From contig NZ_CP033107.1 in assembly GCF_003856975.1 (NCBI RefSeq), positions 2,170,001 to 2,234,000 on the forward strand: a stretch of DNA of 64,000 nt, read 5' to 3'. This document shows positions 44,483-56,543 of this stretch, piece after piece. Position numbers and translations under genes: made by a program. The notes beneath the pieces were generated by a model that saw nothing but the letters and a program-made list of their open reading frames with translations, was not told where the DNA came from and did not search any database. The DNA is from Plantibacter sp. PA-3-X8. GTDB lineage: Bacteria > Actinomycetota > Actinomycetes > Actinomycetales > Microbacteriaceae. Each line of letters starts with the position of its first letter. The stretch's first letter is position 1.

Positions 44483-45334
44483 ATGACCGCCTCCGTCGCC
44501 CTGCTCGGCCCCGCCGAGATCCGAGATCTCGCCACCCTGCTGGACGTGACGCCGACGAAGAAGCTCGGTCAGAACTTCGTCATCGACGCGAACACCGTCC
44601 GCAAGATCGTGTCGGTCGCGCACGTCGCTCCGGGCGACGTCGTGGTCGAGATCGGCCCCGGCCTCGGCTCGTTGACGCTCGGACTGCTCGAGGCCGACGC
44701 GAGCGTCGTCGCCGTCGAGATCGACGGCCGGCTCGCCAAGCAGCTGCCGCTCACCGTGGGGGAGATGGCACCGGGCATGATCGACCGGTTGTCGGTCGTC
44801 CACGAGGACGCGATGCGCATCGAGGAACTCCCGGCGCAGCCCAACCGACTCGTCGCCAACCTGCCGTACAACATCTCCGTGCCCGTCCTCCTGCACTTCC
44901 TGGAGCACTTCACCTCGCTGACGGCCGGTGTCGTCATGGTGCAGGCCGAGGTCGGCTACCGACTCGCCGCCGGCCCGGGGAGCAAGGTCTACGGCGCACC
45001 GAGCGCGAAGGCCGCCTGGTACGGCGCGTGGCGCATCGCCGGCCAGGTGAGCCGCCAGGTGTTCTGGCCCATTCCGAACGTCGACTCCGTGCTCGTCGGA
45101 TTCGAGCGACGCGCCGACGTCATCGGCACCGAGGAGGAGCGCATCAAAACCTTCGCGCTCATCGACGCGGCGTTCCAGCAGCGTCGCAAGATGCTCCGGC
45201 AGGCTCTCGGGAGCGTCCTCGGCAGCTCCCAGGCCGCGACGGAGCAGATGGAGGCCGCCGGAGTGAAACCGACGGCGCGCGGCGAGGAGCTCACGGTCCA
45301 CGACTTCCTGTCGATCGTGCGTGCGGGACGATAA
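44483..45334 (+). CDS. rsmA: 16S rRNA dimethyladenosine transferase
   Basis: 283 residues. LGQNFVIDANTVRKIV, EIGPGLGSLTLGLLE, NLPYNISVPVL and the C-terminal RRKMLRQALGS are all KsgA/RsmA hallmarks. It dimethylates A1518 and A1519 of 16S rRNA. Both GGAGGG and a GATACT hexamer (44471..44476) stand right before the ATG, so the mRNA may be leaderless or normally led. Confidence 0.95.
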   Translation: MTASVALLGPAEIRDLATLLDVTPTKKLGQNFVIDANTVRKIVSVAHVAPGDVVVEIGPGLGSLTLGLLEADASVVAVEIDGRLAKQLPLTVGEMAPGMIDRLSVVHEDAMRIEELPAQPNRLVANLPYNISVPVLLHFLEHFTSLTAGVVMVQAEVGYRLAAGPGSKVYGAPSAKAAWYGAWRIAGQVSRQVFWPIPNVDSVLVGFERRADVIGTEEERIKTFALIDAAFQQRRKMLRQALGSVLGSSQAATEQMEAAGVKPTARGEELTVHDFLSIVRAGR

Positions 45335-45343
45335 CGTTGGCGC

Positions 45344-46411
45344 ATGACCGCTGATGCTCGATTCCCGCTGAACGTCCCCGACATCCACCGCCCGTACGCT
45401 GCGGCAGACGACCGCTACGCGCGGAACGACTACCGCCAGGTCGGCACCTCGGGGCTCTTCCTCCCGCCGATCTCGCTCGGCCTCTGGTACAACTTCGGCG
45501 ACAACCGGCCGTTCGACGGGCAGCGCGCGCTCCTGCGCCACGCGTTCGACCACGGCATCACCCACTTCGACCTCGCGAACAACTACGGCCCGCCCTACGG
45601 TTCCGCCGAGACGAACTTCGGTCGGATGATGCGCGAGGACTTCGGTCCGTACCGCAACGAGCTCATCATCTCCTCGAAGGCCGGCTACGACTTCTGGCCA
45701 GGCCCGTACGGCAACTTCGGTTCGAAGAAGTACCTGACCGCGAGCCTCGACGAGTCGCTCGAGCGAATGGGTCTCGACTACGTCGACGTCTTCTACTCGC
45801 ACCGGGTCGACGAGGTCACGCCCATCGAGGAGACCGTGGGCGCGCTCGACGCGATCGTGCGCTCCGGCAAGGCCCTGTACGTCGGCATCTCGTCGTACTC
45901 GGCCGAGCGGACCGCCGCCGCACACGCCGTCGCTCGCGAGCTCGGCACGCCGCTCGTGATCCACCAGCCGTCGTACTCGATCCTCAACCGCTGGGTCGAG
46001 GACGGCCTCACCGAGGTGCTGACCGAGACCGGCCTCGGCGCGATCGCCTTCGTGCCGCTCGCGCAGGGCCTGCTCACCGACAAGTACCTCGGCGACGGCC
46101 CGGCCGAGCGTGCGACGAACCGTCCGTCCCTGCCCGACCGGCAGGTGAGCGAGGAGATGGCGACCCGCCTCCGGTCCCTCAACGACATCGCCGTGGAGCG
46201 CGGGCAGACCCTCGCGCAGATGTCGCTCGCCTGGGTCCTGAACAACCCCGCGATCACCTCCGCCCTCATCGGCGCCTCCCGCCCCGAGCAACTGGACGAG
46301 AACCTGGCGGCGCTCGACGGCCCCGCGTTCACGACCGAGGAGCTCGAGGAGATCGACCGACTCGCGGAGGGCGCCGACGTCAACATCTGGGCGGACTCCT
46401 CCGACAAGTGA
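45344..46411 (+). CDS. mgrA: Aldo/keto reductase, YghZ type
   Basis: 355 residues. ANNYGPPYGSAETNFGRMM, SSKAGYDFWPGPYG and YSHRVDEVTPIEETVGAL match the L-glyceraldehyde-3-phosphate/methylglyoxal reductase group, with Asp, Tyr, Lys and His of the tetrad present. It reduces toxic aldehydes with NADPH. TAACGT (45332..45337) overlaps the rsmA stop and lies six bases before the ATG. It separates rsmA from ispE. Confidence 0.88.
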   Translation: MTADARFPLNVPDIHRPYAAADDRYARNDYRQVGTSGLFLPPISLGLWYNFGDNRPFDGQRALLRHAFDHGITHFDLANNYGPPYGSAETNFGRMMREDFGPYRNELIISSKAGYDFWPGPYGNFGSKKYLTASLDESLERMGLDYVDVFYSHRVDEVTPIEETVGALDAIVRSGKALYVGISSYSAERTAAAHAVARELGTPLVIHQPSYSILNRWVEDGLTEVLTETGLGAIAFVPLAQGLLTDKYLGDGPAERATNRPSLPDRQVSEEMATRLRSLNDIAVERGQTLAQMSLAWVLNNPAITSALIGASRPEQLDENLAALDGPAFTTEELEEIDRLAEGADVNIWADSSDK

Positions 46412-46451
46412 CGCGGTCTGAGGCGCCTGCTCGATCGACTAACTTGGAACA

Positions 46452-47390
46452 ATGACCACCGAGGCCATCCTCAAGCACGTCCACGTGCGAGCACCTGGGA
46501 AGATCAACGTCTTCCTCAAAGTCGGCGAAGTGATGGACGACGGCTACCACGACGTCGCGACCGCGTACCAGGCGATCTCGCTGTACGAGGACGTGCACGC
46601 GTACCCGGCCGACGACTTCAGTGTGTCGTTCTCCGGCTCGGTGGACGTGTCGGGTGTGCCGACCGACACGAGCAACCTCGCCATCCGCGCCGCGAAGGCC
46701 CTCGCGAGGCGGACCGGGTACCGCGGCGGTGTCCGGCTCGAGATCGAGAAGCACGTCCCGGTCGCCGGCGGGATGGGCGGCGGCTCAGCCGACGCCGCGG
46801 CCACGCTGCTCGCCTGTGACGCCCTGTGGGGGACCGAACGCAGCCGCGACGACCTCCTGGCGCTGGCGGCACGCCTCGGCGCCGACGTGCCCTTCGCCCT
46901 GCTCGGCGGCACCGCTGTCGGCACCGGCCGCGGCGACCAACTGAGCAGTGCGTTGGCCAAGGGGCAGTTCGAGTGGGTGCTCGCCCTCGCCGACTTCGGC
47001 ATGTCGACCCCGCAGGTCTACCAGGAGCTCGACGCCCACCGGGCGCGGCACATCCTCGACATCTCTCCGTCCGGTCGCCAGCCGACGGTCGACGCCGCGG
47101 TGCTCCAGGCGTTGCGGGCGGGCGACGCCCACCTCCTCGGCGAGGTCCTCTACAACGACCTGCAGGCCGCTGCGCTGCAGCTGCGCCCGGTGCTGGGCGA
47201 GGTGCTCGAGTTCGGCGACTCCCAGGGCGCCCTCGGCAGCCTCGTCTCCGGCTCCGGGCCGACGATCGCCTTCCTGGCTGCCGACACCGACGACGCCGTC
47301 GAACTGCAGGTGACGCTCGCCTCGTCCGGGCTGAAGGTCATCCGTGCCCACGGACCGGTCCACGGCGCCCGTATCGTCTCGCAGAGCTGA
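46452..47390 (+). CDS. ispE: 4-diphosphocytidyl-2-C-methyl-D-erythritol kinase
   Basis: 312 residues of the GHMP kinase superfamily. [23 protein letters not shown] at the N-terminus, [17 protein letters not shown] (ATP loop) and [11 protein letters not shown] near the end are the family's three motifs. It phosphorylates CDP-methylerythritol in the non-mevalonate isoprenoid pathway. TAACTT (46440..46445) sits six bases before the ATG. A terminator hairpin follows. Confidence 0.95.
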
Positions 47391-47462: not shown

Positions 47463-48257
47463 TCAGGCCGCGACGCCGCGCACGCGGAGCGAGTTCTCGA
47501 TGATCGTGAGCCCCTCCATGCCGGGGAGCTTGGCGATGTGCCCGTCGATGCGGCGCACCTCGGCCAGGCCGTCCTCGTCGCCGAAGAGGTGGCCCATCAC
47601 GTGCGTGACCTCGGAGTCGGGCATGACGCCCGAGCCGACGGGGCCCCACACCTTACGGAGCAGGAAGCGGGTGAGTCGACGTGCACTCTTCGACGACTCC
47701 AGGCGTGCCTTGGCCTGGCTCGCGTAGAACGCCACGTGACGCGTCTCCTGCTTCGCGATCCGCTTGAGGAGCACCGAGAGCACCGGGTGCCGCTCCAACT
47801 GCGCGAGGCGGGTGTACGCGGCGGTCGCGGACCACTCGTTCGCCGCGCCCCAGCTCATGTGCACCGCGATGAAGTCGGTGCCCACGAGGTTGCCGAGGAT
47901 CGACTGCTTGATGGGGTCGAGGCGGTCCTTCCAGCCGAGCTTCAGGCGCGTCGCCTTGAGCTCGTCGAAGTCGACCGTGATGTCGTGGGCGGCGAGGACG
48001 GCGGCGAGCGCCTCCCCGTGCCAGAACTCTTCACGGTTCCACATCGTCATGAACGCGCCGACGTCGTCGTCCTCGTGGGACGGCGTCATGAGCATGTCGC
48101 GCAGATAGCAGACCGTGTGGTACTCGATGTCGCACATGTAGCGCAGGCTGCGCAGGGTGGAAGCGGGGAGCGGGTTCGTCTTGAATTCGTCGAAGTCGAG
48201 GTCACTCCAGTTCACCGAGACACTCGTCTCGGTGAACTTGTCGATGTCAAACGCCAT
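47463..48257 (-). CDS. Ferritin-like diiron protein of the lipid locus
   Basis: 264 residues, all-helical. It has a full carboxylate diiron site: Glu45, Glu77-x-x-His80, Glu141 and Glu171-x-x-His174, with the spacing of soluble acyl-ACP desaturases and aldehyde-deformylating oxygenases. No signal or membrane segment. It is the last gene of an operon with a fatty-acyl reductase and a degenerate paralogue, overlapping the reductase gene by 11 bases. A role in oxidising the alkyl chain or the fatty alcohol/aldehyde made by the reductase is inferred; the family name is not known to me. Confidence 0.8.
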   Translation of the reverse strand: MAFDIDKFTETSVSVNWSDLDFDEFKTNPLPASTLRSLRYMCDIEYHTVCYLRDMLMTPSHEDDDVGAFMTMWNREEFWHGEALAAVLAAHDITVDFDELKATRLKLGWKDRLDPIKQSILGNLVGTDFIAVHMSWGAANEWSATAAYTRLAQLERHPVLSVLLKRIAKQETRHVAFYASQAKARLESSKSARRLTRFLLRKVWGPVGSGVMPDSEVTHVMGHLFGDEDGLAEVRRIDGHIAKLPGMEGLTIIENSLRVRGVAA

Positions 48258-50643
48258 GTGCGGTGGGGCGGTCGGGGATCGTGTCCTCGGCCGTCCGCTC
48301 TCCTCTCGGCTGTGCGGGGCGCGGTGCGCGGGTCAGTTCGTCTTCGGAGCGGATGCCTCCGGTGGTTCGTGCCCATTCTCGCACCGTCCACCGGCCGGCC
48401 TGCGCCAGCTTGTACAGGGTGTGGTCGGGGTTGACAGCGACCGGGTTCCCGACCAGCTGCAGCCAGGCGGCGTCCGCATGGGAGTCGCCGTAGCCGTAGG
48501 AGTGCGCGAGGTCCATGCCGTGCTGCTCGGCGTACTGCGTGAGCCAGGCGCCGCGCGCTTCGTCGACGAGCGGCGGGCTGTCGAGGTAACCCGTGAGGCG
48601 TCCGTTCTCGGCGTGCATCGCCCCGGCCACGACCTCGTCGAAGAACGGCTCGAGCGGAGCCGTCATGAGGTCGATGGTGCCGGTGACGAGGATCGTCCGG
48701 TGACCGGCTGCCCGGTGCGCGGCGATCTGCTCGAGCGCCTGGGGGAGGAGGCGGGACCGGACGGCCTTGCCGAAGCCGCCCCGGACGATCTTCTCGAGCT
48801 GCGCCACGTCGACGCCCTCGTAGCGACGCATGAACGTGCGGATGAACTCACCGCGGTCGCGGAGTTCAGCACCGATGTACCCCGGCATGGACGCGCCGAG
48901 CGCGGCGATTTCGATGGGCCAGCGCGACCGCGAGGTCGCGGCGAGCCGCAGCCAGAGGTACTGCTCGATGAGGTTCCAGGCGAGCACCGTGCCCTCGAGG
49001 TCGAACACCGCGAGGACGTCGTCGCGCACGGGCAGGATCTTCTGCTGCTTCGCGGCGCCCGCCTTGCGGTTGGCGAAGGCGCGGGTCAGGGTCGTGACGG
49101 CGGGGAAGTGGATGCGCTGGAAGTAGTCGTCCCAGTCGATCGTGGTGACGTCGAACCCGCGGTCCGCCTGCTGCTCGGGCGTCAGCGAGGCGTGCAGGGC
49201 ACGGGTGCGCTGGTCGTCGAAGACGATCTCGCTCTGCACGTAGGAGCGGTAGAGCCCGGTGAAGTCGCGGAGCGAGCCGAGGTCGCTCGACGCCTTGCGG
49301 ATCCGGTCCTGCCACCCGCGGGTGGTCGCGTTCGCCGGCAGGTGGGAGACGACCCGGCCGGCAGCCGTCGTCGCCTTCTGCCGCCGGTCGATGGAGCGCT
49401 CGATGGCACGCCCGCCGGGGAAGTTCCAGGTCGGCACGCTGATGTCGCCGGCGTCCGCCGGGATCGGGTGCTCCGTGAAGTAGCTGTGCACGTTCGCGTA
49501 CATCTTGTGGAACGGCAGCGGGTTGCTGGCTCCGGAGCTCACGTGGAAGTAGCGCGCCGCAGCCGGCTCCGGCGGGGTCTGGGCCGCTGCGAGGATCGCG
49601 TTGACGACGAAGTCGACGGGGATGATGTCGAGCACGCTGTCGGGGAGGCCCGGGAAGTCGGGCAGCTGTCCGCGCCCGTAGGCGATGATCAGCGGGTCGG
49701 CGACCTTGTAGCCGTCGATCCAGCCGGGGAACGGGTGCGCGAGTGCACTCTCGATGATCGACGGGCGCACGACGGAGAGTCGGTTTCCCTCGCCGGCCCA
49801 GCGCTGTTCGGCGACCCGCTCGGCCATCGCCTTCGTGAAGGTGTAGACGTCGGTCCAGCCGAGGCTCTCGGCGCGTGCACGGCCGTGGGCGACGAGTCGG
49901 GCGTCGACCCAGGCGATGCGTGCGGCCTCGGCGGCGTTCGAGACGGCCTGGGGGCCGGCCTTGCCGTGCTCGCGACGGGCGGTCTGCATGAGCTTGCGCA
50001 GGACCTCCGGACGACGGGACGACTCCTCGGTGCGGACGCGTGCCGAGCGGGCGGCCTCGGCCTCGACGCGCCAGTCGACGTCGTGCGCGAGGCTGCGTTC
50101 CGGCTGGATGCCCTTCCGCGTGCCGCCGACGTAGGCGGTTGAGACGTGGACGACGTGCGGGGTCGCGCCGCTCTTCGCGAGCGCCGCGTACAGGGTGGTC
50201 GCGCCGCCGACGTTCGTGGCGAAGGCCTCGTCGATCGGCGGGTCGAAGGAGACGGTCGACGCGCTGTGGATGACGACGTCGAGGTCGGCCGGCAGCGCCA
50301 TCTCGTCGAGGCCACCCTCGATCACACTGACGCGCTCGGCCACGATCGCCGCAGCGGCTTCGGCGCCGACGCGTTCGCGCCAGGCCTTGAACACCGGCTT
50401 GCGGAGCAGGGTCTGGAGACGGTCGCTCCCGCGGACCGACCCCTTCTTCCGGATGAGCAGGCTGACGCGGGTGGTCGGGTGATCGGCGAGCAGGCGCTCG
50501 AGCACCGCCTGCCCGAGGAAGCCGGTGCCGCCGGTGACGAGCACGTGCGCGCCGTCGAGGGCATCCGGGGCGGTGGTGGGCTGCTGAGCCTCCGGCTCCT
50601 GAGCGTCGGGCTGTTCGGCGTCTGGGGTGGGGTTGTCGGTCAT
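48247..50643 (-). CDS. Fatty-acyl reductase fused to a HAD phosphatase
   Basis: 798 residues. Residues 30-420 form an extended SDR: GGTGFLG (38-44) binds NADPH and Tyr267-x-x-x-Lys271 is catalytic, as in fatty acyl-CoA reductases (male-sterility domain). Residues about 540-745 form a HAD-IB phosphatase: FDLEGT (nucleophile Asp548; the usual second Asp is Glu550), VTGT motif II and GYGDSHAD motif IV. The first half should make fatty alcohol from acyl-CoA; the second should remove a phosphate. The start overlaps the stop of the upstream gene (ATGA) and the stop overlaps the diiron gene, so all three are one translational unit. Confidence 0.85.
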   Translation of the reverse strand: MTDNPTPDAEQPDAQEPEAQQPTTAPDALDGAHVLVTGGTGFLGQAVLERLLADHPTTRVSLLIRKKGSVRGSDRLQTLLRKPVFKAWRERVGAEAAAAIVAERVSVIEGGLDEMALPADLDVVIHSASTVSFDPPIDEAFATNVGGATTLYAALAKSGATPHVVHVSTAYVGGTRKGIQPERSLAHDVDWRVEAEAARSARVRTEESSRRPEVLRKLMQTARREHGKAGPQAVSNAAEAARIAWVDARLVAHGRARAESLGWTDVYTFTKAMAERVAEQRWAGEGNRLSVVRPSIIESALAHPFPGWIDGYKVADPLIIAYGRGQLPDFPGLPDSVLDIIPVDFVVNAILAAAQTPPEPAAARYFHVSSGASNPLPFHKMYANVHSYFTEHPIPADAGDISVPTWNFPGGRAIERSIDRRQKATTAAGRVVSHLPANATTRGWQDRIRKASSDLGSLRDFTGLYRSYVQSEIVFDDQRTRALHASLTPEQQADRGFDVTTIDWDDYFQRIHFPAVTTLTRAFANRKAGAAKQQKILPVRDDVLAVFDLEGTVLAWNLIEQYLWLRLAATSRSRWPIEIAALGASMPGYIGAELRDRGEFIRTFMRRYEGVDVAQLEKIVRGGFGKAVRSRLLPQALEQIAAHRAAGHRTILVTGTIDLMTAPLEPFFDEVVAGAMHAENGRLTGYLDSPPLVDEARGAWLTQYAEQHGMDLAHSYGYGDSHADAAWLQLVGNPVAVNPDHTLYKLAQAGRWTVREWARTTGGIRSEDELTRAPRPAQPRGERTAEDTIPDRPTAHGV

Positions 50644-51542
50644 CGGTTCTCCTCGAGGCTGCCGCGGCGTCCGCGGCGGGCAAGTCTGGCGGCGAGATGG
50701 AGGCCCGACTGACCGGGCAGCGCGTCGATCGACGCGTCGATGCCGAGGACGGCGGGGTCGCTCCAGGTGGCGGTGCTGCGGAACACGAGCGCGGCGAACC
50801 GCGCCGTCTGTCGGGGGCCGTTCGCATCGGAGCCTGTGGGCCACACGGCGTTCCGGATGCGGCGACGGGTGATTCCCTGCGCACGGGGCGATGTGGCGAG
50901 GCGGTCACTCGCCTGAGCGGTGAAGAACTCGAGGTGCCTGGCCTTCGTCTCGAGGATCTCGTCGACGAGGCGGTCGAGCACGGGGTGCGGCTCGCGCTCG
51001 CGCACCGCACGGTAGGCCGCGTGGGTGATGAGGTCGTCGATCGTCCCGATCGTCATGTGCCAGGCGATGATGTCCTCGCCGAGCACGTTCGCGATGAGGG
51101 CCTGGCCGATGGGCGCGAAGCGGTCGCGCACGCCGTGGACGGTGCGGCGGAGACCCGTCGAACGCGTCTTGTCGCGCGGGGTCCCGTTCGCCTTGAGCAC
51201 GGTGTCGAGGGTGTCGGTGATCCAGTACTTCTCGTACGCCCAGGTGATCAGGAACGCGGTGACTCTGGCGTCCTTATGGGTGGGGGTGACGAGCACCCCG
51301 CGGAGGTACTGCATGGTCGCGCGCTCGATGTCCGACAGGGCGCGGAGCAGTGCGACCGTCTCAGCACTCAGCGGCGTCTCGGCGAAGGCCGCGGCGTCGA
51401 TCTCCTTGCGACGACTGCCGACGGCGGACTTCGCGTAGTCGCGGACGCTGAACCCGTGGGCAGGCCGCAGCATGGCGCTCTCCTGCTCCGCGTGCTCGAG
51501 GGCCGCGGGTGCTGTTCCGCGCGGCGAATCCCGGTTCACCAT
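50640..51542 (-). CDS. Degenerate paralogue of the diiron protein
   Basis: 300 residues. It aligns along most of its length with the ferritin-like protein two genes downstream (DIExxxxxYLRxxLxTPxH, HMxxG, REPHPVL, RHxxFxxxQAxxRL) but four of six metal ligands are changed: Glu77 to Lys105, His80 to Ile108, Glu141 to Asp170 and Glu171 to Lys200. Only Glu73 and His203 are kept. It should not hold a diiron centre and may be a structural or regulatory partner of the intact paralogue. ATG at 51542 has GGAG upstream; longer frames extend into the divergent promoter. TACAGT (51576..51581, minus) is a possible -10. Confidence 0.72.
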   Translation of the reverse strand: MVNRDSPRGTAPAALEHAEQESAMLRPAHGFSVRDYAKSAVGSRRKEIDAAAFAETPLSAETVALLRALSDIERATMQYLRGVLVTPTHKDARVTAFLITWAYEKYWITDTLDTVLKANGTPRDKTRSTGLRRTVHGVRDRFAPIGQALIANVLGEDIIAWHMTIGTIDDLITHAAYRAVREREPHPVLDRLVDEILETKARHLEFFTAQASDRLATSPRAQGITRRRIRNAVWPTGSDANGPRQTARFAALVFRSTATWSDPAVLGIDASIDALPGQSGLHLAARLARRGRRGSLEENR

Positions 51543-51591
51543 GGCGTCTCCGTTCCGTGACGATCCGACCTCATCACTGTAGCTTGCAACG

Positions 51592-51611
51592 ATACGCAAC
51601 GCGTAGCGTAT
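51592..51611. promoter_or_regulatory. Operator-like palindrome in the divergent lipid promoter
   Basis: ATACGCAACGCGTAGCGTAT is an 18-of-20 palindrome. It overlaps TATTCT (51609..51614), the likely -10 for the rightward operon, which lies seven bases before the ATG, and it also covers the upstream part of the leftward promoter. Its half-site CGTAGCGTA is nearly the same as the half-site in front of the tetR gene at 56.5 kb. Confidence 0.6.
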
Positions 51612-51621
51612 TCTGATCCCC

Positions 51622-52419
51622 ATGGCTACAGCTCTCGTCACCGGTGGGACGTCCGGCATCGGTGCCGCGTTCGCCACGGCGCTCGCCGGACGGGGCTTCG
51701 ACCTGGTGCTCGTCGCCCGTGACGTCGGGCGGCTCGAGCGATCGGCCGAGCGGCTGCGCGCGACCGGTCGCACCGTCGAGGTGATCAGTGCCGACCTCTC
51801 GGACCGCGCCGACGTCGCGAGACTCGCCGCACGGATCGAGGATCAGGCGTCGCCGATCGAGGTCGTCGTGAACAACGCCGGTTTCGGGGTGCACGCCCGC
51901 CTCACCGATTCCGACACGAGCGAGCTCGACACCGCGATCGAGGTCATGTGCCGGAGCGTCGCCACGCTTTCGGGCGCCGCGGCCCGCGCCATGCGGGAAC
52001 GCGGACGCGGCACCATCATCAACGTCTCGAGCACGGCGGGGTACATCACCACCGGCGGTTACTCGGCGGTGAAGGCGTTCGTCACCACCTACACCGAGGC
52101 GCTCGCGGTCGAGCTCGCCGGCTCGGGTGTCCGCGTCACGGCCCTGTGCCCCGGGTGGGTCCGCACCGAGTTCCACGATCGCGCCGGCATCAGCACCCGA
52201 TCGATCCCGTCAGGTCTGTGGATCGATGTGGACCGGCTCGTCGCCGACGCCCTCCGCGACGCCGGGAGAGGGGTCGTCGTCTCCATCCCGAGCTTCCGCT
52301 TCAAGGCCCTCATGGCCCTCGTCAAGTTCGCGCCCCGTGCGTCCATCCGGTGGATCTCCGGTCGGATGTCCTCGAGCCGTCGAGCCGCCAACGCCGCCCA
52401 GTCAGGAGCCCACCGATGA
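51622..52419 (+). CDS. Short-chain dehydrogenase/reductase
   Basis: 265 residues. TGGTSGIG (residues 7-14) binds the cofactor, NNAGFGVHA and the catalytic Ser, Tyr and Lys in NVSSTAGYITTGGYSAVKAF are intact. The C-terminal 40 residues include a hydrophobic/basic stretch that may touch the membrane. In this locus it may reduce the ketone of acyl- or alkyl-dihydroxyacetone phosphate, as the yeast Ayr1-type SDRs do; that assignment is inference. It is the first gene of a three-gene operon joined by ATGA overlaps. Confidence 0.88.
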   Translation: MATALVTGGTSGIGAAFATALAGRGFDLVLVARDVGRLERSAERLRATGRTVEVISADLSDRADVARLAARIEDQASPIEVVVNNAGFGVHARLTDSDTSELDTAIEVMCRSVATLSGAAARAMRERGRGTIINVSSTAGYITTGGYSAVKAFVTTYTEALAVELAGSGVRVTALCPGWVRTEFHDRAGISTRSIPSGLWIDVDRLVADALRDAGRGVVVSIPSFRFKALMALVKFAPRASIRWISGRMSSSRRAANAAQSGAHR

Positions 52420-53120
52420 CCGCAGAGCCGCGGTTCACCTCCTCCCTCCACGCCAACGCGCGGTTCGTCGCCCAGCGTCTGCTGTTGAAGCCGCTCGTCT
52501 GGTCGCTGACCCGCGTGACGGTGACGGGTCGCGAGCGCCTGTCGGGCGTGAGCGGTCCGTACATCGTCGTCGCCAACCACCAGTCGCACCTCGATGCACC
52601 GCTCGTCGTCGGGGCGATGCCGCGTCGGCTCTCGCGCTACCTCGCCGCCGGTGTCGCCGCCGACTACTTCTTCGACGTCCCCGCCCGCCGCATCTTCGCC
52701 GCCCTCTTCTTCAACGCGTTCCCGGTCGACCGCTCGGGTGACCGCAAGCGTGCAGGCGTGTCACGGGAGCTGCTCGAGGCCGGCGTCCCGATCCTCATCT
52801 TCCCCGAGGGCGGCCGATCGCGGACGGGTGAGCTCGGCCGGTTCAAGCCCGGTGCCGCGGCACTCGCCACGCGCCAGGGCATCCCCTGCCTCCCGGTGGC
52901 CGTCCTCGGCACCCACTCCGCCATGCCGAAGGGTCGCAACTGGCCCGTCCCCGGACGACCGCCGGTGCGCGTCGTCTTCGGGCAACCGATCCACCCGCAG
53001 CCGAACGAGACGCCCGTCCAGCTCATGGACCGCGTCGTCGCCGAGATCGTCGCGCTGCGCGCTTCGGTCGAGCCGGGAGCACACGTTTCGATCGACACAC
53101 CACGAAAGGAAGCCGGATGA
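52416..53120 (+). CDS. PlsC-type acyltransferase
   Basis: 234 residues. NHQSHLD (NHx4D motif) and FPEGGRSRTGELGRFKPG are the glycerolipid acyltransferase motifs, and PCLPVAVLG the later one. It transfers an acyl chain from acyl-CoA or acyl-ACP to a glycerol- or dihydroxyacetone-phosphate backbone at the membrane. In this context it could act before the alkyl-DHAP synthase (on DHAP) or after it (on alkyl-glycerol-phosphate). Both ends overlap neighbours by ATGA. Confidence 0.9.
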   Translation: MTAEPRFTSSLHANARFVAQRLLLKPLVWSLTRVTVTGRERLSGVSGPYIVVANHQSHLDAPLVVGAMPRRLSRYLAAGVAADYFFDVPARRIFAALFFNAFPVDRSGDRKRAGVSRELLEAGVPILIFPEGGRSRTGELGRFKPGAAALATRQGIPCLPVAVLGTHSAMPKGRNWPVPGRPPVRVVFGQPIHPQPNETPVQLMDRVVAEIVALRASVEPGAHVSIDTPRKEAG

Positions 53121-54781
53121 CGTCTGTGGAGCACATGAAGTGGTGGGGCTGGGGAGTCGAAGGGGTCGCTTTCGAGCACAGCAACAAGCCAGACTTCGCG
53201 CCGTTCGTGAAGCAGGCCGTCGGTCTCGACCTCCGGAAGCCGGCGCAGGCACACCTCAGCTTCGACGAGCTCACCGTCCCAGCATCGCGCGCGTCCGACG
53301 AGTTCATCGCCGAGCTCTCGACGCTCGTCGGTCAGGGGCACGTGACCACGGACGACCAGGAACGCGTCGTCCACACCTACGGCAAGAGCATCCGCGACCT
53401 GCTCCGGATCCGCGCGAACGACCTGCCCCGCACGCCCGACCTCGTCGTCTACCCGGCTGATGAGGCCGAAGTCGCGTCGGTCGTCGCTGCAGCCGTCGCC
53501 ACAGACGCCGTGATCATCCCGTTCGGCGGTGGCACCAACATCGCCGGCTCGCTCGACCCGCAGCCGACGGAGGAGCGGGTCATCATCTCGCTCGACCTCG
53601 GCCGGCTCGACCGCGTCCTGTCGATCGACGAGGGCTCCGGTCTCGCCACCATCCAGGCCGGCGCGCAGGGCCCCTCGATCGAGGAGCAGCTGGGCGCCAA
53701 GGGGTGGACGATGGGCCACTTCCCCGACAGCTTCACGCACTCCACGCTCGGCGGATGGGTCGCGACCCGCTCCTCGGGCATGCAGTCCGACAAGTACGGC
53801 GACATCGCCGACATCACCAAGGGCCTGCGGATGGTGCGCCCGAACGGCATCGTGGCGATCCGCCCCGTCCCGAGTGCGTCGACCGGCCCGAGCGTCCGCG
53901 AGATGATCATCGGCAGCGAGGGTCGACTCGGCATCATCACCGAGGTCACCGTGCAGGTCCACCGGACGCCCGCCGTCCGCGAGGTCCTCGGCTACTTCTT
54001 CCCCACCTGGGAGGCCGGGCTCGCGGCGATGCACGAGATCGCGGAGAGCGACGCCAGCCCCTCGGTCACCCGGGTGTCGAACGCCCGGGAGAGCGGCTTC
54101 TCGCTCGCGACCCGCAAGGCCAGCACCGGCGTCTCGGCGCAGGTCACCAAGGGCCTCATGAAGGTGCTCACAGCCAGAGGCTGGGATCTCGAGCAGCTGT
54201 GCCTCTCCTTCATCGGCTACGAGGGCAGCGCGTCCCATGTGCGATACGAGAAGGGCCTCGTCGGCTCGATCGTCCGGAAGCACGGCGGCATCGGCGTCGG
54301 CAAGGGCCCCGGTGCCCTCTACGACCAGAAGAAGTTCGACACCCCGTACCTGCGCGACTTCCTCCTCGACCGCGGAGCCGCGGCCGACGTCTCGGAGACC
54401 GCAGCGCCCTGGTCTCGGCTGCAGGAGGTCTACGACGCCGCGAACGACGCCGCCAACGCCGCGTACGACAAGCTCGGGGTGCACGGGTGGATCATGTGCC
54501 ACCTCTCGCACTCGTACCACTCCGGCGCGTGCCTGTACTTCACCTTCGCGTTCATCACCGGCGACGACCCGATCGGCGAGTACGAGCAGGTCAAGTCGGC
54601 GATCCAGCAGGCGTTCGTCGACCACGGTGGCACCCTCTCGCACCACCACGCGGTCGGTGTCGAGCACTCGCCGTGGATGGAACAGGACATCTCGACCGAG
54701 GGCGTCGCGATCATGCGCGGCCTCTTCGACAGTGCTGACCCCGGCTCGAACTTCAACCCCGGCAAGATCCTCGCGGACTGA
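53117..54781 (+). CDS. Alkyl-dihydroxyacetonephosphate synthase homologue
   Basis: 554 residues, FAD-binding oxidase family. The N-terminal MKWWGWG matches the MKWNGWG of animal alkyl-DHAP synthase; FGGGTNIAGSL and PDSFTHSTLGGWVATRSSGMQSDKYGD form the FAD site; GSEGRLGIITEVTV closes it; SHSYHSGACLYF and the HHH motif (residues 509-511) match active-site residues required in the animal enzyme. The reaction would exchange the acyl group of acyl-DHAP for a fatty alcohol, making an ether bond. The nearby fatty-acyl reductase would supply the alcohol. Annotation pipelines usually call it only an FAD-binding oxidase. Confidence 0.85.
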   Translation: MTSVEHMKWWGWGVEGVAFEHSNKPDFAPFVKQAVGLDLRKPAQAHLSFDELTVPASRASDEFIAELSTLVGQGHVTTDDQERVVHTYGKSIRDLLRIRANDLPRTPDLVVYPADEAEVASVVAAAVATDAVIIPFGGGTNIAGSLDPQPTEERVIISLDLGRLDRVLSIDEGSGLATIQAGAQGPSIEEQLGAKGWTMGHFPDSFTHSTLGGWVATRSSGMQSDKYGDIADITKGLRMVRPNGIVAIRPVPSASTGPSVREMIIGSEGRLGIITEVTVQVHRTPAVREVLGYFFPTWEAGLAAMHEIAESDASPSVTRVSNARESGFSLATRKASTGVSAQVTKGLMKVLTARGWDLEQLCLSFIGYEGSASHVRYEKGLVGSIVRKHGGIGVGKGPGALYDQKKFDTPYLRDFLLDRGAAADVSETAAPWSRLQEVYDAANDAANAAYDKLGVHGWIMCHLSHSYHSGACLYFTFAFITGDDPIGEYEQVKSAIQQAFVDHGGTLSHHHAVGVEHSPWMEQDISTEGVAIMRGLFDSADPGSNFNPGKILAD

Positions 54782-54783
54782 GT

Positions 54784-54872
54784 CGTTCCTCCGGTCCATG
54801 CGCGGTCTCCGGTCCCTGAGCCGTTCCTCCGGTCCCTGAGCCGTTCCTCCGGTCCCTGAGCCTGTCGAAGGG
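54784..54872. repeat. 20-base tandem repeat ending in a dispersed-repeat copy
   Basis: Units of the type CCGGTCCCTGAGCCGTTCCT repeat about three times (with a degenerate first unit) and end in a full CCCTGAGCCTGTCGAAGGG. The block fills the gap between the convergent alkyl-DHAP synthase and diacylglycerol-kinase-like genes. Confidence 0.82.
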
Positions 54873-54877
54873 CGGGC

Positions 54878-55909
54878 TCAGGGCCGGAGCCGACCCGAGC
54901 GCGCCGCCGTCGCGGGTAGTCGGACGATGAGTGCACCGGGGTCGACGGTCAGCCTGGCCGCCGAGACCAGGCCGATGCCGTCGCCGTCTGCCTGGAACTC
55001 GGCGGGCGGTGAGACCGTCACGTCGATCCGTCGCACGCGCAGGTAGCGGAGCGCACCTCCGGCGGAGCCGGCCGTCTCGACGGCACTCGGCTGCACGCGG
55101 CTGCCCCGTGTCCGTCTGCCCTTGGAGAACCGGGCGACGGGATTGTTCGCGCGGTGCAGCCAGCGCGTGACCCGGACCCCGTCCCACCCCTCGAGGGACC
55201 GCACCATCAGGACGTCGAGTACACCGTCGTCGAGGAGTGCGTCGGGGAGGACGTCGAGGCCCGCCGAGACCGTGCCGCAGTTCCCGACGAACATCGTGTG
55301 CGTCCGTCCGCTCCGGATCGGTCCGCCGTCCTCCTTCCAGGAGACGCGAGGGCGGTCGCGGCGGAAGAGCCCGCGGATGATCGGCACGACGTAGGCGATC
55401 CAGCCGAAGCGGCGCTTCAGGACGGGGTCGGCGTAGGCCACCATGTCCGCGTCGACGCCGAAGCCCGACATGACGAGGAACGGGGTGCTGCGCCGGACGC
55501 CGTCGGGGTTCCGATATTCGATGACCCCGACGTCGACGCTCCGGTCCTCCCCGGCGAACGCGGCCCGCACCGCGGTGGCCGTGTCGATCGGGATCCCGGC
55601 GTTCCGGGCGAAGAGGTTCGCGGTGCCGACGGGGACGACGGCGAACGGCGTCCGCGTGTGACGCATCGCCCCTGCCACCTCGCGGACCGTCCCGTCGCCG
55701 CCGGCGGCGATCACGAGCGACGCGCCGTCTCCGAGCGCCTCCGCGACCTGGTCGACCGCGGTCGACCGCTCACGGGTCGGGATCCAGCTCGTCGGGCCCC
55801 AGCCGGCCTCGGCGGCGGCGGCGTCGACGAGCCTCGTCACGCGCTCGAGCTGGATGCGCGTCGGGTTGTAGATCACCGCAGCGTGCGGCGGGGTGCTGCC
55901 TCGCGTCAT
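54878..55909 (-). CDS. Diacylglycerol/lipid kinase family protein
   Basis: 343 residues with the DAGK catalytic fold: NPTR near the start, AAGGDGTVREVAGAM (nucleotide loop, about residues 68-82), PVGTANLFARNAGIP and a C-terminal FQADGDGIG. It phosphorylates a lipid alcohol such as diacylglycerol (or an alkyl-acylglycerol) with ATP. It begins inside the tetR stop (ATGA overlap), so regulator and kinase are one unit. Its link to the ether-lipid genes is by position. Confidence 0.88.
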   Translation of the reverse strand: MTRGSTPPHAAVIYNPTRIQLERVTRLVDAAAAEAGWGPTSWIPTRERSTAVDQVAEALGDGASLVIAAGGDGTVREVAGAMRHTRTPFAVVPVGTANLFARNAGIPIDTATAVRAAFAGEDRSVDVGVIEYRNPDGVRRSTPFLVMSGFGVDADMVAYADPVLKRRFGWIAYVVPIIRGLFRRDRPRVSWKEDGGPIRSGRTHTMFVGNCGTVSAGLDVLPDALLDDGVLDVLMVRSLEGWDGVRVTRWLHRANNPVARFSKGRRTRGSRVQPSAVETAGSAGGALRYLRVRRIDVTVSPPAEFQADGDGIGLVSAARLTVDPGALIVRLPATAARSGRLRP

Positions 55910-56472
55910 GCGGCCAGTGCCGGCCAGAGGACGGACAGGACCTGGTCCGCCCAGTCGTCGTCCATGTCGGCGCCGCGGACGAGCTGTCCGAGGACCGCGC
56001 CGAGGAGGAGGGTCGCGACGAGGCGGCCATCGAGTCCGGGCTTCAGATCGCCGGTGGCGATGCGTTCGTCGACGAGGTTGGACAATGCGCGCGCCCGGTT
56101 CCTCGTGAGGTCGCGGAGCAGGGTCGAGAACTCCGGATCGTCCTGGAGCAGGATCGACGCGATCGTTCCGCGCCCTACCACATCCTCGATCATCGTCCGG
56201 GCCTCGTGGAGCAGCCAGGTGAAGGTCTCGTAGGTCGGGAGGTCCTCCGGGATCTGGACCGGCGTCTCCATGGCACGAGCCACCGCGGCGGTCAGCAGCT
56301 CGGAGCGGTTGCGGTAGCGCCGGTAGATCGTCGTCTTCGCGACACCGGTGGTCTCGGCGACCGCCTCGATGTTGACGGCGACGGAGCCGCGAGATCGCAT
56401 CAGGTCGAGCGCGGCGTCGAGGATGCGGTCACTCATCTGTTGAGCGCGGGACACACGTCGGGAGACGGGCAC
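55906..56472 (-). CDS. TetR family regulator
   Basis: 188 residues. The N-terminal helix-turn-helix is clear: ILDAALDLMRSRGSVAVNIEAVAETTGVAKTTIYRRYRNRSELL. The C-terminal part is a TetR ligand-binding helical domain (TetR_C_11-like). AGGAGG stands before the ATG. A 25-base inverted repeat lies 47 bases upstream and a related half-site occurs in the divergent lipid promoter, so it probably represses itself and that locus, with a lipid or acyl-CoA as ligand. Confidence 0.88.
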   Translation of the reverse strand: MPVSRRVSRAQQMSDRILDAALDLMRSRGSVAVNIEAVAETTGVAKTTIYRRYRNRSELLTAAVARAMETPVQIPEDLPTYETFTWLLHEARTMIEDVVGRGTIASILLQDDPEFSTLLRDLTRNRARALSNLVDERIATGDLKPGLDGRLVATLLLGAVLGQLVRGADMDDDWADQVLSVLWPALAA

Positions 56473-56518
56473 CGACCAACCTCCTCCGTGCGCGGCAGGA
56501 TCCGGTCGGGTCGGTCCG

Positions 56519-56543
56519 TTGCGCTACGCCCACCGTAGCGCAA
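56519..56543. promoter_or_regulatory. Inverted repeat upstream of tetR
   Basis: TTGCGCTACG (56519..56528) and CGTAGCGCAA (56534..56543) are perfect ten-base arms around CCCAC. The site lies in the tetR promoter region, between tetR and the 3' end of the spermidine-synthase-like gene. The arm CGTAGCGCAA shares CGTAGCGYA with the palindrome at 51.6 kb. Confidence 0.65.

Follow-up and report, generated by a model that had tools for sequence, protein, structure and literature searches.

A 64,000-nucleotide stretch of the single-contig, 4.08 Mb genome of Plantibacter sp. PA-3-X8 (NZ_CP033107.1, positions 2,170,001 to 2,234,000; hereafter the window) carries a cluster of six genes, ferA, FAR-HAD, ferC, SDR, plsC and AGPS, that probably directs the synthesis of ether phospholipids by the dihydroxyacetone phosphate (DHAP) route and their oxidation to plasmalogens. 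The core of this cluster is very likely to make alkyl ether lipids, and bacteria carrying the whole cluster likely make vinyl ethers. FerA, a ferritin-like diiron protein, together with its paralogue FerC is on sequence grounds our preferred, if less assured, candidate for the delta1'-desaturase of the last step. Literature data are taken from excerpts of the cited papers.

The AGPS/ADPS homologue (53117..54781, plus strand) has FAD_binding_4 and FAD-oxidase_C domains and is the proposed ether-bond-forming FAD enzyme. The motifs MKWWGWG and HHH, which an earlier note on this DNA had pointed out, lie at residues 7-13 and 509-511. Comparison to all PDB chains gives Dictyostelium ADPS as top match (2uuu; 2.7e-116, 392.8 bits, residues 47-551), followed by guinea-pig ADPS (4bby; 5.5e-87, 296.1 bits, residues 25-547); a D-lactate dehydrogenase ranks next, at 80.1 bits. 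A paralogue from the same genome, used as control, displays the reverse pattern: it scores 338.8 bits against glycolate oxidase and 87.5 against ADPS. Bit-score comparison, which is the basis of the assignment, and the reversed control rule out a lactate or glycolate oxidase, the grouping that the earlier note had named as fatal to its proposal. R352, R447 and Y508 of Dictyostelium ADPS are important by mutagenesis according to the excerpt of PMC3509576 and align with R319, R413 and Y474 of the window protein once the chain index is shifted by three residues. The latter three and H509-511 are invariant in 10/10 aligned AGPS loci. We take R419, R515 and Y578 to be the guinea-pig equivalents of the Arg/Arg/Tyr set. 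The identification as an AGPS homologue holds, with ADPS structures as best matches and the catalytic residues kept.

The other predicted enzymes of ether lipid synthesis are encoded in the same cluster. FAR-HAD (48247..50643, minus strand; 798 residues from the ATG) appears to be a fusion of a fatty acyl-CoA reductase (FAR) to a HAD-IB phosphatase and is the proposed source of fatty alcohol. Pfam assigns NAD_binding_4 (8.5e-49) and HAD (1e-28) domains; a Sterile domain scores under the cut-off (32.7 versus 35.4 bits; 8.7e-08). With NAD_binding_4 and similarity to the fatty acyl-CoA reductase 7eoz in the PDB (1.4e-47), it qualifies as a putative FAR. The short-chain reductase (SDR; 51622..52419, plus strand; adh_short 1e-44) is the proposed alkyl/acyl-DHAP reductase, and the PlsC-type protein (52416..53120, plus strand; PF01553 3.8e-23) is a proposed DHAP acyltransferase or sn-2 acyltransferase.

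ferA (47463..48257, minus strand) codes for a 264-residue soluble ferritin-like diiron protein, the proposed catalytic subunit of an alkyl-ether delta1'-desaturase. Its Pfam scores stay under the cut-offs of both FA_desaturase_2 (PF03405; 18.5 versus 22.7 bits gathering cut-off) and Rubrerythrin (20.1 versus 22.8 bits). Fold comparison reveals an acyl-acyl carrier protein (ACP)-desaturase-like protein at 12-17% identity, and the diiron ligands E, ExxH, E, ExxH are each kept in 45 or 46 of 46 sequences. ferC (50640..~51542, minus strand; start inferred from 300-residue Plantibacter homologues) encodes a FerA paralogue that has lost three of the diiron ligands and is proposed to be a structural or regulatory partner. 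The two ferritin-like proteins of the earlier note are thus both present, with a full ligand set in one of them only. Its idea of a diiron desaturase gains the fold and the ligands of FerA, and the vinyl-ether step stays a conjecture.

The cluster is widely conserved. The AGPS alignment scan of genomes comprises 363 relatives; the counts below refer to the best 80, the most similar part, and to genes within the fetched DNA around AGPS. All six genes are found together in 67/80 loci, so their grouping is not due to chance; the earlier note had asked whether they co-occur in other genomes. SDR, PlsC and AGPS are associated in 78/80 loci, the match lying near a contig end in both loci without a detected SDR, and SDR also stands beside PlsC-AGPS in 5/5 further regions; FAR is present in 71/80. 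Carriers of the six genes include Plantibacter, Herbiconiux, Subtercola, Agreia, Frigoribacterium, Frondihabitans, Labedella, Salinibacterium, Phytoactinopolyspora, Ruania, Occultella and three Streptomyces records. The window AGPS shares 98-99% identity with its counterpart in four Plantibacter records (L082-L085), as expected of a Plantibacter-like member of the Microbacteriaceae.

FerA and AGPS are also inherited together. Among 199 genomes drawn evenly from the family, with thresholds of E<=1e-10 for FerA and E<=1e-100 for AGPS, FerA occurs in 60/199 and AGPS in 56/199: 54 genomes have the two together, 6 have only FerA, 2 have only AGPS and 137 lack both (Fisher p 3e-39, a statistic that ignores relatedness). 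Of the two AGPS-only genomes, one encodes a 37% homologue and one has a completeness of 85%. At genus level (hand count) FerA is found in 29/85, AGPS in 29/85 and both in 27/85. Co-inheritance, like the enzyme classes and the catalytic and ligand residues, is apparent from the sequences themselves.

Gene content suggests nonetheless two units. In genus g135, AGPS (62-65% identity) is present in 12/12 FerA-positive genomes, separated from ferA by a contig boundary in 7 and by over 0.5 Mb in 5, and FAR, SDR, PlsC and AGPS stand together without fer genes in 4/4 fetched g135 genomes and in G422, a genome from a different family. FerA has no match in 9/12 genomes whose AGPS loci lack fer in the fetched DNA; these nine are 3 isolates and 6 metagenome-assembled genomes, which may be incomplete, and FAR is kept in 2/9 of their loci. 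Genomes with a core and no fer include those of Microlunatus kandeliicorticis, Segeticoccus rhizosphaerae and Phytoactinopolyspora halophila. Because the g135 core stands apart from fer and most fer-less AGPS genomes have no FerA, the alkyl-ether core is to be seen, at the level of gene content, as one module and fer as a separable one.

Several observations concern these variants. In genome G135 AGPS was matched as two overlapping pieces (G135:C1:2484542-2486193), suggesting a frameshift or sequencing error. The solo ferA of genus g135 (L075, L076) is remote from the AGPS core and has a fumarase/lyase gene and a spermidine-synthase-like gene as neighbours. ferC and ferA are adjacent without FAR between them in L054, L056, L057, L069 and L073; the AGPS orthologue was not found at the thresholds used in several genomes with such a pair (G079, G142, G558), and the pair may thus have a function in other settings as well. 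FerA proteins of a more remote group (L074, P0234 and relatives), with about 38-55% identity to window FerA, are encoded by Kineococcus and other actinobacteria; where genomes with FerA at <=55% identity were tested (11), AGPS is absent or just 33-39% identical. No common lipid context was found among the neighbours of solo or distant ferA genes.

In the pathway that we propose, FAR would convert acyl-CoA to a fatty alcohol and PlsC, or another acyltransferase, would form acyl-DHAP. AGPS would exchange the acyl chain for the alcohol to give alkyl-DHAP, and SDR would reduce this product to alkyl-glycerol 3-phosphate (alkyl-G3P), which would then enter normal phospholipid or glycolipid synthesis. 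FerA, aided by FerC, would use its diiron site, O2 and two electrons for C1'-C2' desaturation of the alkyl chain to a vinyl ether, the reaction of CarF/PEDS1 carried out on a soluble acyl-ACP-desaturase-like scaffold. The HAD domain could be an alkyl-G3P phosphatase. We infer the order of the steps, the substrate, the delta1' position and the roles of FerC and of the HAD domain.

Dimethyl acetals, a plasmalogen marker, are reported from carrier genera. In four Subtercola species they have mainly i-16:0, a-15:0 and a-17:0 chains and amount to about 21-29% of peaks, and Agreia has iso-15:0 dimethyl acetal only, at <=4% (excerpt of PMC5945732). The anteiso-15:0 aldehyde/dimethyl acetal is described in Frigoribacterium adelgis D8 and in the F. 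faeni type strain (PMC12823222), and the record of branched dimethyl acetals in Subtercola goes back to 2000, as cited by PMC5945732 and PMC7472656. The reported Subtercola compounds have saturated branched chains, like the acyl chains. All six genes are present in S. vilae DB165, the measured strain (L099), S. lobariae CGMCC 1.12976 (L112), three S. boreus strains other than the measured one (L100, L105, L110), F. faeni NBRC 103066 (L128) and Agreia pratensis VKM Ac-2510 (L131), and FerA and FerC in 12/12 Subtercola and 16/16 Frigoribacterium genomes. That three of three dimethyl-acetal genera have the locus is modest statistics alone, since the base rate of FerA in the family is 29/85 genera. 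As to the ether lipids that the earlier note had asked about, the literature reports dimethyl acetals from three Subtercola carriers (S. vilae, S. boreus and S. lobariae), from F. faeni and from Agreia as a genus, and some other carriers are described without them in the excerpts at hand. The portion consulted of a genus overview mentions nothing on dimethyl acetals in carrier genera.

Kineococcus belongs to another family. K. rubinsiae has anteiso-15:0 dimethyl acetal by gas chromatography-mass spectrometry (2.9%), a compound that the MIDI system called C14:0 2-OH according to its authors (excerpt of PMC7472656), and K. xinjiangensis has a protein 55% identical to FerA with all ligands present. 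Some MIDI reports of 2-OH-C14:0 in Microbacteriaceae may likewise be misread anteiso-15:0 dimethyl acetal, a plasmalogen marker. The type strains of S. boreus and S. vilae have 10.4% and 15.6% 2-OH-C14:0 by MIDI (PMC9287328), to be compared with 11.0% and 3.2% a-15:0 dimethyl acetal (PMC5945732), a good agreement for S. boreus and a poor one for S. vilae in these partial sources. Against a simple miscall, the excerpted tables give both items for S. lobariae (14:0 2-OH 10.3, a-15:0 dimethyl acetal 9.7; PMC5945732) and for F. adelgis D8 (C14:0 2OH 17.0% together with a dimethyl acetal item; PMC12823222). If the miscall holds, it would explain Frondihabitans, which has the full cluster and no reported dimethyl acetals.

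Known plasmalogen enzymes were searched for as another source of these compounds. The PlsA-type family (DUF2229, PF09989), presumably a marker of PlsA, was found in 0/22 carrier genomes and in 4/14 control genomes, ruling out PlsA as hidden source of dimethyl acetals for the 22 carriers searched. CarF/PEDS1 (PF10520) was found in 0/22 carriers and 0/394 class genomes; this negative is weak because no control genome gave a match, and CarF is rejected as hidden source only to that extent. The Lipid_desat domain (PF10520) is not listed among the Pfam matches of FerA. The route that the earlier note had in mind would be unlike both; the PlsA search, with working controls, agrees with it. Phosphatidylserine decarboxylase was not found in 16/22 carriers, among which are F. 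faeni, A. pratensis and the window genome itself. Since this enzyme is a usual source of phosphatidylethanolamine (PE), the lipid of those carriers is probably not plasmenyl-PE, and a vinyl ether made there would sit on phosphatidylglycerol, cardiolipin or glycolipids. PE as sole head group is not general, the decarboxylase being found in 6/22 carriers only, among them S. vilae and S. lobariae.

A number of points weigh against a plasmalogen route through FerA. The dimethyl acetal and the FerA homologue of Kineococcus come from two different species. The excerpt of PMC12823222 lists no dimethyl acetals for F. endophyticum or F. salinisoli, though the genus is 16/16 for FerA and FerC; the excerpt of PMC9287328 gives no 2-OH-C14:0 peak for S. 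endophyticus, though all 12 Subtercola genomes have the fer pair; and Frondihabitans, with major 14:0 2-OH, is described as free of dimethyl acetals (excerpt of PMC5945732). Frondihabitans carries the full cluster (L141), a conflict unless its 14:0 2-OH was miscalled. Phenotypes and genomes were matched mostly at species or genus level and among carriers only, with no true negatives. Dimethyl acetals can also arise from free aldehydes. The desaturase-like fold does not fix the substrate of FerA. FerA lacks an AGPS orthologue in 6/60 FerA-positive family genomes; among 34 of the 41 FerA-positive class genomes re-tested, AGPS at >=51% identity is present in 20, a 33-39% homologue only in 5 and none at E<=1e-60 in 9. 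Because of these genomes FerA may have another or a wider role.

Such a role is central to an alternative that we hold unlikely, in which only saturated alkyl ethers are made, FerA and FerC act elsewhere, for instance in oxidation or desaturation of acyl or alcohol chains before ether formation or in detoxification of fatty aldehydes, and the reported dimethyl acetals originate from aldehydes or from a different enzyme. The FerA-positive genomes without AGPS orthologue (6/60 in the family, 9/34 in the class) and the carriers described without dimethyl acetals agree with it. The saturated branched chains of the dimethyl acetals fit however delta1' rather than in-chain desaturation, 21-29% of peaks seems high for free aldehyde, and another enzyme is made less attractive by the absence of the PlsA family with working controls and by the uncontrolled failure to find CarF. 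It is improbable that FerA/FerC form instead an ether-cleaving oxygenase like AGMO, whose C1' hydroxylation would free an aldehyde so that the cluster turns ethers over with no accumulation: a diiron site and C1' oxidation would also give an aldehyde, turned by methanolysis into dimethyl acetal by established chemistry, but FerA is clustered with biosynthetic genes in 67/80 loci and abundant dimethyl acetals in the reports suggest a stable product. We consider very improbable an alkane/alkene pathway where FAR yields an aldehyde that the ferritin-like protein deformylates like ADO, AGPS and PlsC being unrelated neighbours; Pfam and fold comparisons do not favour it. We retain the plasmalogen hypothesis, and the reading of the earlier note, an alkyl ether lipid locus with a possible diiron vinyl-ether step, is supported: among the contrary outcomes it had listed, none was clearly observed.

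The six genes form two divergent runs: the minus strand carries ferA, FAR-HAD and ferC, the plus strand SDR, PlsC and AGPS, and same-strand neighbours overlap by 4-11 bases (4 bases for PlsC/AGPS); all genes listed earlier were recovered at their positions in this overlapping arrangement. AGPS is followed by genes for a YegS/DAGK-type lipid kinase (54878..55909, minus strand; DAGK_cat 1e-21), which could phosphorylate alkyl- or diacylglycerol, and a TetR regulator (55906..56472, minus strand; TetR_N 2.7e-10). Both are present as claimed and are optional neighbours: their homologues occur in 16/80 and 19/80 loci, respectively, which excludes them as constant core members. M. tuberculosis Rv2250c-Rv2252, with a TetR, a flavoprotein and a lipid kinase, may be a parallel; among the titles listed by one literature search none concerned ether lipids in connection with it. 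A second PlsC-type gene and a lipid kinase gene are found near ferA in Subtercola loci (L099, L100, L104, L105, L106, L108, L110, L112) and in Labedella L097. Next to the cluster, window positions 44483-47390 encode a ksgA-like rRNA dimethylase, an aldo/keto reductase and ispE; ispE was detected near the locus in four Plantibacter loci only, among the 80.

We incline, with reserve, to a broader view: a third, O2-dependent plasmalogen route in aerobic actinobacteria, composed of the AGPS core and FerA/FerC, whose vinyl-ether reaction would have evolved independently of CarF/PEDS1 and PlsA, acting on non-PE lipids in genomes without PE synthesis and being the missing source of dimethyl acetals and of some 2-OH-C14:0 reports. 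In open-licence PubMed Central literature no title or abstract was found that connects actinobacterial plasmalogens with a ferritin-like protein, nor was a gene named for the branched dimethyl acetals of Subtercola found in the open-licence literature. The locus is a direct, deletable candidate for their origin in strains that are culturable and non-pathogenic, and this conserved cluster of oxygen-breathing soil and plant actinobacteria would explain plasmalogen traces that have no known enzyme. If so, the vinyl-ether bond would have a third evolutionary origin, this one on a soluble desaturase-like scaffold. Purification and crystallisation should then be easier than with PEDS1, a membrane enzyme, and 2-OH-C14:0 may need re-reading as a chemotaxonomic marker.

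The proposed route has in common with the animal peroxisomal pathway (FAR1, GNPAT, AGPS, acyl/alkyl-DHAP reductase, PEDS1) a FAR, an acyltransferase, an SDR-type reductase and an AGPS whose catalytic residues are the same. It differs in that a PEDS1 homologue was not found in carriers, by an uncontrolled search, and a soluble ferritin-fold diiron protein is proposed in its place. The core would add a member to the kind of AGPS pathway described in Myxococcus, and the desaturase step would be a new variant; the MXAN_1676-1674 and elb operons with CarF, as excerpted from PMC9131029, similarly combine in an aerobic bacterium an AGPS with FAR and acyltransferase domains and a NAD-dependent reductase. 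The domain split is different, FAR being fused here to HAD, PlsC free and the fer pair inside the cluster, and CarF is a membrane desaturase with histidine motifs, whereas FerA is a soluble-type helical bundle. Anaerobic PlsA/PlsR would lead to the same kind of end product if our interpretation is right, but is reductive and proceeds from diacyl lipids without alcohol or O2 (excerpt of PMC9702350). FerA shares with soluble acyl-ACP desaturases (FA_desaturase_2, DesA2) the fold and the six-residue carboxylate-histidine diiron site, and is set apart from them by its 12-17% identity, its score under the Pfam cut-off, its ligand-poor partner and its linkage to AGPS.

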